A DNA stretch of 64,000 bases from Gilvimarinus sp. DA14 (GTDB lineage Bacteria > Pseudomonadota > Gammaproteobacteria > Pseudomonadales > Cellvibrionaceae). The notes beneath the pieces are model-generated. The model was not told the origin of the DNA, made no database searches, and worked only from the letters and a program-made list of their open reading frames with translations. Where the stretch lies: contig NZ_CP100350.1 of assembly GCF_024204685.1 (NCBI RefSeq), positions 2,024,501-2,088,500 of the forward strand. The letters are read 5' to 3'. How positions within the stretch are numbered: the first letter of the stretch is position 1; each line of letters begins with the position of its first letter. Both the position numbers and the translations under genes were made by a program. This document shows positions 10,971 through 25,624 of this stretch, one piece after another.

Positions 10971-11708
10971 CTAATCTTCTGGCGTTTGATCCGGCTTCGA
11001 ATTATCAATTACCTCCCTTAGCCAGGGGTAATGTGTAGACACACGAGAATAGTACTCTGAAACTCCGTAATGCCCCTCTTCAAATCCGTTACCCTTTTGA
11101 TACGCGCTGACGCCGGCAACGTAAAGTAGTCCGTCAATTTCCATCAGCGCAGGGCCACCGCTATCACCCGGCCCGCTGATCCCTTCCAGATTTGTCGCGG
11201 TTTCGGGTTTATCAAATAAGAATACGAGGTTGTATTGTGTAGCTTCAATCACCGTATTTCTTGCGCCGCGCAAATTACCATCCTCTCCGGCTAGGCCATC
11301 GCAGCCGTTACCGAAAACACCATTGCCAACGAATACAACGTTTCTGCCAAGCTCGTTTTTCTGGTTGTATAGGGCAATGGGTTTACCGTTGCGAACAGGA
11401 TTTTTCAGCTGGACCAGAGCAATATCACTGTCTGGATGGACAAAGGTTTGCTCAACCTGATACGGGACTTCGAGATGCAGTGCAGTTTCGAGACCGACGC
11501 CCTCCCCTCTCATACAATGCGCCGCCGTCAACAGCCAACCTGGCTCGACTAAGGTGGACATACAACCCCCGATATAGGCGACAGACGCAGCATACCGCGC
11601 GCCCAACTCCTGACATTCTTTATCATCCACATCATGTCGAGTGATGATTCCATGCGCCGGAGAGATTGTTAACAATGTAAGTAATGTTACGTATAGGGCT
11701 AACTTCAT
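10971..11708 (-). CDS. Secreted trypsin-like serine protease (S1 family)
   Basis: The 245-aa protein has a signal peptide (first about 20 residues, ending SPAHG) and then a chymotrypsin-fold domain starting IITRHDV. The catalytic triad is visible: His64 in TAAHC, Asp95 in DIALV, Ser183 in GPGDSGGPA. Several cysteines could form disulfides in the periplasm or outside the cell. Compact size and lack of accessory domains suggest a simple secreted protease. The 3' flank was examined for an attC site; none was convincing, but the 5' flank is attC 11747-11816. Confidence 0.88.
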   Translation of the reverse strand: MKLALYVTLLTLLTISPAHGIITRHDVDDKECQELGARYAASVAYIGGCMSTLVEPGWLLTAAHCMRGEGVGLETALHLEVPYQVEQTFVHPDSDIALVQLKNPVRNGKPIALYNQKNELGRNVVFVGNGVFGNGCDGLAGEDGNLRGARNTVIEATQYNLVFLFDKPETATNLEGISGPGDSGGPALMEIDGLLYVAGVSAYQKGNGFEEGHYGVSEYYSRVSTHYPWLREVIDNSKPDQTPED

Positions 11709-11746: not shown

Positions 11747-11816
11747 GGCTAACGCTTGGCTTTGCGGCGCATCGAAGCGGAGCGTAGGTGCGTCCGACAC
11801 CAGACACTGGTTACAC
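11747..11816 (-). repeat. attC recombination site between the 95-aa gene and the protease gene
   Basis: Read on the minus strand it begins GTGTAAC (R'' core) and ends AAGCGTTAGCC (R' core). Between them TGTCGGACGCA pairs with TGCGCCGCA, leaving an unpaired T and A: the extrahelical bases that mark the bottom strand of attC hairpins for IntI. The site is about 70 bases long, in the usual attC range. The TAA stop of the 95-aa gene lies inside the R'' core. Confidence 0.78.
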
Positions 11817-12098
11817 CGCATCCGTCAGTGCGGCAACGGCTTCAATAATTTTATCCCTTCTCAGTTCGTATTCACTACTCACTGGCTCTTGGCTACGAGT
11901 AGCCATAAAAAAGAGCTCCGAAGAGATACTCCTCAGTAGGTTAACCACTCTAGAAGATGGCCCAAGTCGGTTGTTCACCGCCCAACGGTCAATCGCACTT
12001 GAGGACAGTCCGAAGAGCTTTTCGTCAAGATCCAGTCTTGAGTTAACCATATCCAGAACATGTCTTTGAGTCGCCATTCGGCTAACAAACTCATCCAT
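11811..12098 (-). CDS. Small helical protein, third gene of the pentapeptide/nucleotidyltransferase cassette
   Basis: A 95-aa, probably all-helical, charged protein without a recognised domain or membrane segment. Its start overlaps the end of the nucleotidyltransferase gene by 8 bases, so the two are translationally coupled and probably work together. Its TAA stop lies within an attC core, as expected for the last gene of an integron cassette. A regulatory subunit, antitoxin or adaptor for the nucleotidyltransferase are possibilities, but none is shown by the sequence. Confidence 0.72.
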   Translation of the reverse strand: MDEFVSRMATQRHVLDMVNSRLDLDEKLFGLSSSAIDRWAVNNRLGPSSRVVNLLRSISSELFFMATRSQEPVSSEYELRRDKIIEAVAALTDAV

Positions 12099-12720
12099 TT
12101 AAATTTACCTCACGGCATAGTTCATCGATCCAAGATCGGCAGCGCTTCAACTCCGGCAATAGAATCGCCAGATCGATATCACCAATACTGTCCCCGGCTC
12201 CTCTCGTTGAAAGCAGGCGAGCCTGCATTAGCAAAGAGTAAACATTCTCATCAACATCCAGGCTTCTCGAGCCAAGCCTTCTCGCCGAATCCCTTCCGAA
12301 GGTTGGGCTGTCCATCCTCGAAAGCGAATAGCAGGTTGCGATGTTTCGCAAAGCTAGAAAAATCGTTGAAAGTTCAAACACTAGACTCGGCGAGCCTTTT
12401 TGAACAGACTGAAATGAGGATTCAAATATATCTCGAAATTTCAAGCAATCGGCTACTGCTCCCGAATATTTAGACGGCGCCCCCAAGCTCTTCAAAAAAT
12501 CAGCCCCATCAGCTGCGTAAATCAGGCGGCTCTCAAGAGAAAGATGCCAAGCGAATGCATTACCAGCTTTCCAGAGCTCAAGTATTCTCGCATACGAATA
12601 AATCGAAAATCTCTCAGGGTTGAGGCGAGAATCCCGACCTTCCACAAGGGCCAGCAGATCAACATCAGAGTCAACAGAAATGTCACCGCGACAAATTGAG
12701 CCAAAAGCGTAGATATGCAT
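12091..12720 (-). CDS. Pol-beta-superfamily nucleotidyltransferase
   Basis: The 209-aa protein opens with a nucleotidyltransferase active site: GSICRGDISVDSDVDLLAL (residues 7-25), matching GS-x(9-12)-D-x-D with Asp19 and Asp21 as metal ligands. The rest is largely helical. It contains IFLALRNIATC, faintly like the R-x4-6-H signature of HEPN domains but lacking the histidine. The family includes MNT antitoxins, aminoglycoside nucleotidyltransferases and AMPylating enzymes. Its start shares one base (TAATG) with the stop of the pentapeptide gene and its end overlaps the 95-aa gene. Confidence 0.82.
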   Translation of the reverse strand: MHIYAFGSICRGDISVDSDVDLLALVEGRDSRLNPERFSIYSYARILELWKAGNAFAWHLSLESRLIYAADGADFLKSLGAPSKYSGAVADCLKFRDIFESSFQSVQKGSPSLVFELSTIFLALRNIATCYSLSRMDSPTFGRDSARRLGSRSLDVDENVYSLLMQARLLSTRGAGDSIGDIDLAILLPELKRCRSWIDELCREVNLNG

Positions 12721-13559
12721 TATCGACGACTAAACCGTTTAACTAAAATCGACACCAAGCAGGCAAGCATTACATACCTCAAAGCCGCGATGCCTGCCAA
12801 TAGCAGACCTGAAAACCCATCTGGCTTAGCGACACCAAGGAATACTTGCGGAGCATTTTTTACTGCCTCAAAGTAACTGGTCAGTGAGTCTGCATCCTTT
12901 AAGAAATAAACCTCGCCCAATGCAATAGCCAACATTACCAAAAGCAACGTTCTAAGCAGCTTCATGAAGCTTTCACCATTCCCCCAGAACGCATCAAGCA
13001 ATACAAAATCAAGCCACTCTAAGAAAGCCTTAATTCGCGCTACACCTGGATAATGCTTTCGGTAATAGGCCTCGCGAGAGCGCCAAGCTTTATACAAATG
13101 AATACGACCGGCCTCAAGTTCAATTTTTATCGCCTTGTTTGCAGCAACTGAATTTCCGATTTGATGGAAGTTCACCCTAAGCGTTCTGGCAAATTTCTGC
13201 TGAAGGTTTTCCTTTCCGGGGCATCCTGTATCAAGAATTTCGGGCTCTACTTGCGTTTGGGAAAACTCTGCGTAATCAAACACACAGCCATCAAACTTAC
13301 TACCTCTAAGGTTTGAGTTAGTAAATTTACACCCAACAAATCTGCAAGAATCAAAAACACACTTATGCAAGTATGCTGAGTCGAAATGCGAGTAGCTGAA
13401 ATCGCAATCTGTGAAGCGCTTCTTCTTGGCAACCAAACGTTCAAATTGTTTATTTCTCAGGTTTACGCCTTTAAGGTCATGGGCGATAGCTTGGTCTGGG
13501 ATAGTTTCCCTGCTCGTAGGGCGAAAATGATCATTCATGCCGTGGGACTCATCCTTCAT
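12720..13559 (-). CDS. Membrane-anchored pentapeptide-repeat protein
   Basis: Residues about 45-105 contain roughly ten A(D/N)LXX-type pentapeptides (FTDCDFSYSHFDSAYLHKC and following), which fold into a right-handed beta helix. After a helical linker there are two hydrophobic segments near the C-terminus (LLRTLLLVMLAIALGEVYFL, then GLLLAGIAALRYVMLACLVS). The protein is thus a cytoplasmic beta-helix tethered to the inner membrane, an arrangement seen among accessory and defence genes. The first ATG lies 3 bases from the preceding attC core; a start 7 codons downstream (13538), preceded by AAGGATGAG, is an alternative. Confidence 0.83.
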   Translation of the reverse strand: MKDESHGMNDHFRPTSRETIPDQAIAHDLKGVNLRNKQFERLVAKKKRFTDCDFSYSHFDSAYLHKCVFDSCRFVGCKFTNSNLRGSKFDGCVFDYAEFSQTQVEPEILDTGCPGKENLQQKFARTLRVNFHQIGNSVAANKAIKIELEAGRIHLYKAWRSREAYYRKHYPGVARIKAFLEWLDFVLLDAFWGNGESFMKLLRTLLLVMLAIALGEVYFLKDADSLTSYFEAVKNAPQVFLGVAKPDGFSGLLLAGIAALRYVMLACLVSILVKRFSRR

Positions 13560-13562
13560 ACG

Positions 13563-13622
13563 GTATAACGCAAGAACTCACCGGCGCACTTTAGTGCGTC
13601 CGAGTGACGCGGTTTGTTAAAC
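13563..13622 (-). repeat. attC recombination site between the GHKL gene and the pentapeptide gene
   Basis: On the minus strand the site starts GTTTAAC (R'', a perfect RYYYAAC) and ends GCGTTATAC (R'). The inner arms TCACTCGGACGCACT and AGTGCGCCGGTGA pair fully except for an extra T and an extra A on one strand, the extrahelical bases used by IntI to choose the bottom strand. Total length is 60 bases, the same as classical attC sites. The TAA stop of the GHKL gene lies in the R'' core and the next cassette gene starts 3 bases beyond R'. Confidence 0.85.
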
Positions 13623-15305
13623 TACGGAATCCGAAGTTCTAGGCGTAAATTCTATATCCAGTATTTCTTTTAGGTACCCTTTCAAACAAAAAACCTCAAT
13701 TTTATGAGCTTTTTTAGGATTGTCTAAAAAGTACTTGGTATAAGACTCGTTCGAATCAGGGGCTATTATTTTCATTTTCCGCTCCTCCCCGTTTACATCC
13801 TTCAGGACATCATCGTGCTTTATATCCGATTCCCAGCAAACAATGCTGTGTAGATTCTCAAAGGAATGATTGAAGTTTCCCGTCAACGTTCTTTTAAATT
13901 CTACATAGAATAGGCGAGCACTAGATATAGGCGTTTTTTTATCCCCCTTGGCAATAACATCTATCCCCTCATGGGTGTCGTAATCAACAACATGAAATGG
14001 AAAGAGGTCTGGCCTCTTTTGTTCGAGCAATAGAAATATTGAGAATACTCCACTTTCTCGTTCAGGCTCCACAAGCGTAAGCCCTTCATAAACAGCAACG
14101 TTTGACCGATTAACCTTCTTAATACGCCATTCAAAGTTCTTCTTTTCTTTTTCCGTTGTTTGGTATGCCTGAGCCTCATCTTCAAGCCATTCCAATGAAG
14201 TCCACTCATCACTCTTTATAATTTCCTCATATATTTTCTTTACCTCCTGCTGGAGGTCCTGAAGAACTTCCGAAGGAGTATTATCTATAGATCCTCTGTT
14301 AGCTGTGAGCCGCAGATCCTGGCAATTAATAAAGGCATGGAATTTTGTATACTCAGAACCTTTAAAGGTGATCCATTCATTCTTTCTCTGGATTGGTATA
14401 AAATCTTTGCAAACCCACAACCCGTATCGCTCTTGGATAGTATAGGCACCAGTTGGTGCTGAATATCCTGGCCTTCTTAGCATCGCATTATAAGAATACT
14501 TTCTATACTTTCCTTCCACACAAAAGATAGCGTTGAACCGAATCTCAGGATAGTTTTTAAGGCTTCCAGTTCTAACTATCCTCTTGGAGTAATGATCAGG
14601 GGCTTTTACCAAATGCTCTTCGAACAGCTTATTTATATCTTTGCTGTCCTCTGGGAAGTAATGGCCTTGCTTAATTGTTTCAAACTCTTCCTCACCCAAT
14701 CCCTTTAGCTCGAGGGTTACAGGGGTCTTGAAATCAAAGAACTGGTTCTCTACCGATCCATGCTTTGTAAACCAAGAAATATAGTCCTTCAAAATATCGT
14801 GAGTAAACTTATCTCGTCGATTGTTGTTGTAACCCCAAACTACTATTTTCGTTCCTTTCTGAACTCCCTCTTTACTAACCACGTGAGCAACTGGTATCTC
14901 TCGGTCGAAAAGTTTCCGAAATGGAGAGTCCATAGTGGCGTGTAAGCCATTGTTCCCATCTGATGTTTCCACCTCAATCTTTTCGCTATTGAAATAGACT
15001 TTCGTCCCATGGCCTTTCTCACCAATTGATTCGATATCATCCCTTCGGGTAGAGTTTCCCAGGTCGAAAAAGTTCTGCAATTGCTCAGAAGTCATTCCGG
15101 CGCCGTTATCAGAAATCTCGATTTTCAAAACGGATTCGCCGTATTTTTTTACGACGTCAAAGCAAATTTTAATTTTTGAAGCCTTGGCGTCATAAGAATT
15201 GCTAACCGCCTCTCTCACCAAATCCAAAGGATTAGAAAAATCATTGGCAATTTCAATAAACTCTTGAGTTTCATCAACAGCAGGTCTGATTTCGAACGAA
15301 TTCAT
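13617..15305 (-). CDS. GHKL (MutL/MORC-like) ATPase with putative C-terminal PD-(D/E)XK nuclease domain
   Basis: The 562-aa protein has a full Bergerat ATP-binding fold: N-box Glu32-x3-Asn36 (LVREAVSNSYDAKA), DNGAGM at 66-71, and the lid G95-EKGHG-T. The middle resembles the transducer region of MutL/MORC/Hsp90-like ATPases. Near the C-terminus Asp449 (HEGIDVI) and Glu469-Phe-Lys471 (FYVEFKRTL) fit the D...(D/E)xK spacing of restriction-endonuclease folds. ATP-driven DNA recognition coupled to cleavage is therefore plausible, as described for bacterial MORC-type ATPases linked to restriction systems. ATG 15305 is preferred over an upstream start at 15395. The gene is AT-rich. Confidence 0.85.
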   Translation of the reverse strand: MNSFEIRPAVDETQEFIEIANDFSNPLDLVREAVSNSYDAKASKIKICFDVVKKYGESVLKIEISDNGAGMTSEQLQNFFDLGNSTRRDDIESIGEKGHGTKVYFNSEKIEVETSDGNNGLHATMDSPFRKLFDREIPVAHVVSKEGVQKGTKIVVWGYNNNRRDKFTHDILKDYISWFTKHGSVENQFFDFKTPVTLELKGLGEEEFETIKQGHYFPEDSKDINKLFEEHLVKAPDHYSKRIVRTGSLKNYPEIRFNAIFCVEGKYRKYSYNAMLRRPGYSAPTGAYTIQERYGLWVCKDFIPIQRKNEWITFKGSEYTKFHAFINCQDLRLTANRGSIDNTPSEVLQDLQQEVKKIYEEIIKSDEWTSLEWLEDEAQAYQTTEKEKKNFEWRIKKVNRSNVAVYEGLTLVEPERESGVFSIFLLLEQKRPDLFPFHVVDYDTHEGIDVIAKGDKKTPISSARLFYVEFKRTLTGNFNHSFENLHSIVCWESDIKHDDVLKDVNGEERKMKIIAPDSNESYTKYFLDNPKKAHKIEVFCLKGYLKEILDIEFTPRTSDSVV

Positions 15306-15652
15306 CTCATCTCTCGGTTGGTTGTATTTTTGTTTAACATTTGTATATCGCGCATGCGCATTATCCTTCGATGAAAAACTCCAAAAAAGAGGCACAAGCC
15401 TTTGAATTATCAGTCATTTAAGCCGCTTACGGGCTTCAGGAAGGGCGAACAGAACGCGCGAAGAGTGATCTTGTTATCTAACCTTCCAAACTGGTTAAAT
15501 GCCTGACTATAAAGCTTTTTATAAAATTTGAAAACCGCAAAGCGAGCAAGCGCCTATAGCAAACCGCGCACACAATCGAAAAGCTTACCACTAGAGCACA
15601 AACAAACGCTTTAGCATCAGACCTCAGACGTCCAGCATCAGACACCTCAAAT
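15306..15652. other. Non-coding stretch upstream of the GHKL cassette
   Basis: No gene is supported between the GHKL start and the ppc terminator; open frames here are short and have no recognisable content. It contains a close pair of integron core-like heptamers, ATCTAAC at 15476-15482 and GTTAAAT at 15494-15500, only 11 bases apart. These could be a remnant cassette boundary but lack attC arms. It also carries the motif CATCAGACCTCAGACGTC at 15615-15632, which recurs almost exactly at 34471-34488. Confidence 0.6.
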
Positions 15653-25482: not shown

Positions 25483-25484
25483 GC

Positions 25485-25624
25485 GCAGAACGCAGAACGC
25501 AGAACGCAGAACGCAGAACGCAGAACGCAGAACGCAGAACGCAGAACGCAGAACGCAGAACGCAGAACGCAGAACGCAGAACGCAGAACGCAGAACGCAG
25601 AACGCAGAACGCAGAACGCAGAAC
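25485..25624. repeat. Twenty perfect tandem copies of GCAGAAC
   Basis: The heptamer GCAGAAC is repeated 20 times without a single substitution over 140 bases, starting 2 bases after the fimX-like stop codon. It ends about 38 bases before a bidirectional terminator. Perfect conservation implies recent expansion by slippage. The array lies outside any gene, so copy number would alter the 3' untranslated region rather than a protein. Confidence 0.97.

Follow-up and report, generated by a model that had tools for sequence, protein, structure and literature searches.

The hairpin at positions 13563-13622 of the window, as we call the whole 64,000-nucleotide stretch of the Gilvimarinus sp. DA14 chromosome that was analysed, is very probably an attC site, that of the first cassette in a two-cassette array which starts from an attI copy equipped with a cassette promoter but has no intI gene. 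What we observe is an attC structure and its match to an attC model, stop codons within the R'' boxes, an upstream leader that ends at G^TT, the occurrence of that leader next to an intact intI in related genera, and no intI here. The initial annotation had described the hairpin as the first attC of an integrase-less cassette cluster, and the start of the array at an attI-type site is the part that goes beyond that account. The features of the array and the gene that follows it, all on the minus strand, are these:

15506-15534, minus strand: candidate cassette promoter TTTTCA-17-TATAGT; hexamers largely conserved across aligned leader copies
15335-15541, minus strand: orphan attI/promoter leader, a 207-bp copy of a family of about 224 bp (model R2, 159 bits; alignment); ends at the crossover ATG^TTA
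15334-15340, minus strand: attI-side core box GTTAAAC; leader homology ends there in the aligned copies
13569-15339, minus strand: gene cassette 1, probable limits from the G^TT rule, the leader end and the R' box of attC1
13617-15305, minus strand: GHKL-type ATPase gene, 562 aa (HATPase_c_3, 48.5 bits, gathering cut-off 25)
13563-13622, minus strand: attC1 (model R1, 35.9 bits, E 1.5e-6; fold)
11753-13568, minus strand: gene cassette 2, probable limits from the R' boxes of attC1 and attC2
12720-13559, minus strand: pentapeptide-repeat protein, weakly HalA-like (Pentapeptide, 53.2 bits; NCBIfam HalA, 38.9 bits, cut-off 250)
12091-12720, minus strand: nucleotidyltransferase, weakly HalB-like (NTP_transf_2, 27.8 bits; NCBIfam HalB, 39.8 bits, cut-off 190)
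11811-12098, minus strand: 95-aa ORF with its TAA stop in the attC2 R'' box; no family match
11747-11816, minus strand: attC2 (R1, 30.0 bits, E 4.7e-5; template score 9.8)
10971-11708, minus strand: trypsin-like gene (Trypsin, 55.9 bits), starting 38 nt past attC2

The hairpin has the structure of an attC site

The folded bottom strand of an attC site is the substrate for recombination, and an attC is recognised by paired R'' and R' boxes, paired inner arms and extrahelical bases on that strand, all of which are found at 13563-13622. Read on the minus strand from 13622 to 13563, attC1 consists of R'' GTTTAAC, a 9-nt spacer, CAC, an extra T, CGG, an extra A, CGCAC, a TAAA loop, the return arm and R' GTTATAC. 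The R' box departs once from GTTRRRY, the cores pair at 6/7 positions, and the inner arms pair at 10/10 positions of our attC template. On the window's plus strand, which is the bottom strand, the extrahelical bases are T 13599 and A 13603. The attC sites that adjoin integrases in the same bacterial order have this layout, and in them, as in attC1, the extra base beside the loop is mostly A on the top strand. The initial annotation had proposed folding the bottom strand as a check, and both bases are indeed bulged in the predicted DNA fold, at -11.7 kcal/mol; because 10/200 shuffles are equally stable, the energy alone is modest evidence.

In a template scan of the 64-kb window, attC1 scored 10.5 and attC2 9.8, while 150 dinucleotide shuffles of the window, read on both strands, gave 0 sites at 10 or above and two at 9.5 or above. 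The form of the template was settled after viewing attC1 and the array sites, at which point we did not know of attC2. We also built a covariance model, R1, from 14 attC sites of integrase-adjacent arrays and zero window sequence. Since MAFFT misaligned the 3′ arms of full-length attCs, its alignment is limited to the arms; of 20 arms-only rows, six that lacked the full (9,8) layout were removed and 14 kept. With E-values that are rough owing to a short calibration, R1 gives exactly two matches in the window, attC1 and attC2, on the same strand. The minus-strand covariance-model match that had been put forward as a check is thus present and significant, with a model built here, and the predicted orientation and the place of attC1 as first in the array, with attC2 next, are borne out. 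At both sites the ORF that comes before, at 13617-15305 in the case of attC1, has its TAA stop inside R''.

Across 28 loci R1 gave 116 matches at E≤0.1, of which 113 are in integrase-adjacent array loci and 3 in L016, and in the former the match agrees with the array strand in 113/113 cases, the 14 training sites counted in. R1 misses some attC types, and one further attC of this genome, at L085, was recognised by eye only. Genome-wide, with 150 of 2252 first-look candidates scored, R1 finds at least 14 attC-like sites, at least 12 of them at E≤0.005, in at least nine places. We also noted half an attC, 86% like attC1, at 1501-1543 of L012 (G054), 3′ of a shortened LysR-type ORF.

The cassettes and their genes

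The gene of cassette 1 has a relative with 69% DNA identity in another genus (G032), where it is bracketed by two other attC sites (L016, 10030-10107 and 8242-8313); the DNA similarity reaches into the R'' box and then stops. Beside the attC behind this relative, at 6538-8004 of L016, is a reverse transcriptase gene, probably of group II intron type, which would fit an attC-targeting intron.

In cassette 2, the pentapeptide-repeat protein has two C-terminal hydrophobic stretches by eye. It and the nucleotidyltransferase match the Hailong families weakly, at 38.9 of 250 bits for HalA and 39.8 of 190 bits for HalB; as these scores are far under the curated cut-offs, we call the pair no more than Hailong-like. 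With PADLOC, the six window proteins that were scanned had no more than weak matches. No attC was found behind the trypsin-like gene, R1 having no further match in the window, and this gene is at most a possible cassette gene. Elsewhere in the window, at 25484-25623, the 7-base unit CGCAGAA is repeated in tandem in about 20 copies directly 3′ of a gene that by eye is of GGDEF/EAL type.

No integron integrase is recognised in the genome

The window's genome, of the Gilvimarinus clade, is complete as a single contig of 3,956,837 bases. In the whole genome six rows match TIGR02249, none over the 265-bit cut-off and the best at 86.4, and at the same lax level this model has matches in all 14 control genomes as well; a search for intI at 1e-60 found none in this genome. 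An intI gene is present in 6/7 congeners, in 84/194 genomes of the order (1e-80) and in 113/144 of the family (1e-60). The earlier description as integrase-less therefore agrees with a genome in which no integron integrase is recognised, and with the intI gene absent the array is not a complete integron.

By the IntegronFinder default, a CALIN has at least two attC sites (PMC12444791). The window array has two attCs on the same strand, 1.8 kb apart, with no integron integrase nearby, in a genome without intI, and it retains a recognisable attI and promoter. The term cluster that had been applied to it stands in that a second attC is present, but its extent is only two attC sites.

A leader that ends at the probable crossover

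Leader copies end at the crossover ATACAAATG^TTA, which in the window would lie between 15340 and 15339. When leader DNA is compared with its repeats in this genome and in relatives, similarity stops at or a few bases from window position 15335 (split hits aside). Among 12 copies, eight are 223-224 bp long, one is 220 bp, the window copy is 207 bp, and the two at L083 and L084 in the window's genome are 366-367 bp through an insertion. The window leader is missing about 17 bp and the TATACAG box. Ten aligned copies have a mean column identity of 82%, and at least four copies are in the window's genome. A promoter search in the window leader found one candidate against a shuffle mean of 0.6, which makes the candidate weak as evidence alone.

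Two further observations concern these copies and their surroundings. The leaders at L083 (1341-1706) and L084 (5216-5580) have in common an insertion of about 143 bp. An intergenic repeat of about 200 bp lies about 140-355 bp upstream of the leaders in L083, L084, L092, L093, L094, L097, L131 and L132, and it also occurs without a leader.

A model of the leader, R2, built partly from the window copy, has matches in 26/144 family genomes and 7/32 genera, with 76 rows, some of which are fragments of one copy. Most leaders are without an adjacent intI, and 7/76 rows are 124-247 bp from an intact intI (in G232, G241, G245, G246 twice, G260 and G327); at L115, L127 and L129 the leader core itself adjoins an intact intI. 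In eight Gilvimarinus-clade genomes 0/38 leader rows are beside intI, and a tblastn search at E 0.01, covering the window and loci L083-L102 (20 in all), found no IntI remnants beside Gilvimarinus leaders, the matches it gave being due to aconitase ORFs among the queries. At the leader loci L114-L133 IntI-like sequence was found in 4/20, the match at L124 spanning only 200/329 residues. Eight of the 26 leader-bearing genomes are outside the 113 with intI (G000, G004, G008, G036, G234, G235, G239 and G259).

The core GCGCATGCGCGRTATACAAATG^TTA is common to intI-adjacent and orphan leaders with few changes, and divergence begins immediately after it. An attI that adjoins an intact intI in G026 shares CGATATACAAATGTT, and the leader core resembles the published attI1 and attI2 cores, AAACAAAGTTRRRY and AATAAAATGTTRRRY (PMC12901181). 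In several of the orphan leaders a TATACAG(G)TATATT box still stands in the place it has in intI-bearing copies, where it is upstream of intI. In leader loci, a few of which had been selected because of an attC, the attC matches are downstream and on the same strand in 18/18 cases at E≤0.01, 22/22 at 0.05 and 26/27 at 0.5, but only 21/37 leaders have a detected downstream attC within 4.2 kb. The leader thus has what marks an attI: it lies beside intI in relatives, ends at G^TT and is followed by unrelated cassettes. From its place beside intI in relatives, its end at the crossover and the downstream same-strand attCs, we conclude that the window array, one of several of its kind, is a small CALIN behind an orphan attI.

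A scan of the named genome collection with the core pattern found 16 places, 4 with IntI alongside, in Cellvibrio, Gilvimarinus, Porticoccus and relatives, and Idiomarina; those in Roseivirga and Akkermansia may be stray. A literature search by titles and the starts of abstracts, covering few subscription journals, found no description of a multi-copy or orphan attI, and a search of the same collection found no paper on Gilvimarinus and integrons together.

Other leader loci and defence-like genes

Two relatives have the ppc-locus leader with different genes after it: in Gilvimarinus xylanilyticus HB14 (G003) it is followed by a reverse transcriptase of DRT8-like type and by an attC (E 0.084), and in G. 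chinensis DSM 19667 (G007) by a 143-aa ORF and an attC. The window's genome has another leader directly after acnA, where G001, G002 and G005 have intI. The acnA-locus attI of the genus was considered as the parent of the leader and rejected, as the cores differ in the one case compared (G002). In G003 the leader after acnA (L099, 2136-2250) has lost internal sequence between its two GCGCAYGC motifs, which resemble each other.

A domain scan of ten proteins encoded close to attCs or leaders covered nine from the window's genome and one from G003. The domains found were Shedu, SIR2, two TIR, PIN_8, T5orf172 and Mrr-TPR in the former set and DRT8 in G003, and two of the ten had no match. Judged by these domains, several genes behind leaders or at other attC places look like phage defence genes (Shedu, SIR2 and TIR, with the DRT8-like one in a sister species). 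We claim no defence enrichment, because the ten were hand-chosen from the ORF list; integrons that hold defence genes have already been published (PMC12409362).

Alternative explanations and a possible mechanism

An alternative is off-target insertion of the cassettes at an attG-type site, which is not an attI, with the leader a coincidental neighbour. Such insertion is a published route to CALINs (PMC8618304), and six other attC-bearing places in the genome (L086-L091) have no leader match. We nevertheless consider it unlikely here, because many unrelated loci have a leader that ends at the crossover, the leader matches attI regions beside intI, and it precedes same-strand attCs in 26/27 placements. 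The leader could also be a dispersed promoter or regulatory repeat behind which cassettes follow by accident, an idea that draws on its conserved promoter-like hexamers and on the other repeat that is often found 140-355 bp upstream. Its placement between intI and cassettes in the Cellvibrio group and the likeness of its core to AAACAAAGTTRRRY and AATAAAATGTTRRRY (PMC12901181) speak against such a repeat, to which we give little credence. That 13563-13622 is an ordinary hairpin or a chance match would sit well with a fold energy only modestly better than that of shuffles and with an Rfam scan of the window that returned no family at its threshold; it is contradicted by the R1 E-value, the second site, the stop codons in R'' and the cassette relative elsewhere, and is highly improbable.

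We thus favour an attC-bearing array that begins at an attI copy, although the limited share of leaders with a detected downstream attC (21/37), the shortened window leader without its TATACAG box, the lack of intI beside leaders in the Gilvimarinus clade and the different attI of the genus's usual intI after acnA (in G002) count against it. Its cassettes would have been inserted through attI x attC recombination, with the IntI either supplied from another place or subsequently lost, the leader promoter may express the first cassette, and the present genome would contain nothing recognised as able to move the cassettes. More broadly, and tentatively, the attI-plus-promoter leader of about 224 bp may act in Cellvibrionaceae as an acceptor that is scattered in multiple copies and maintained with no integrase of its own, so that an IntI acting in trans or arriving on passing DNA would load it with cassettes, some of them anti-phage, and several one- or two-cassette sites would replace one long array. 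The partial IntI at L124 and the TATACAG boxes would be explained by decay of whole integrons, and the lack of any intI trace beside Gilvimarinus leaders by spread of the leader without intI. The origin of a CALIN, whether off-target insertion, intI loss or rearrangement, is usually difficult to establish, since attI sites can be recognised in few classes only. In this case the attI is recognisable by sequence, Cellvibrio-group genomes allow its cognate IntI type to be identified, and the ppc-locus leader has different genes in sister species, so that trans-loading of an orphan attI is directly testable.

Comparison with known systems

The window array has the same attI core, promoter region and kind of attC as the sedentary chromosomal integron of Cellvibrionaceae, which consists of intI, attI and cassettes; unlike that integron, it has no integrase and lies elsewhere than the acnA locus, where several congeners have theirs. 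The Xanthomonas CALINs are likewise integrase-less arrays at recurrent chromosomal places, but the portions of that report available to us mention no repeated attI at those places (PMC12444791), whereas one is present here. Insertion at attG sites also puts cassettes outside an integrase-bearing platform, yet its target is short and degenerate, whereas the cassettes here follow a long, conserved attI-type leader.
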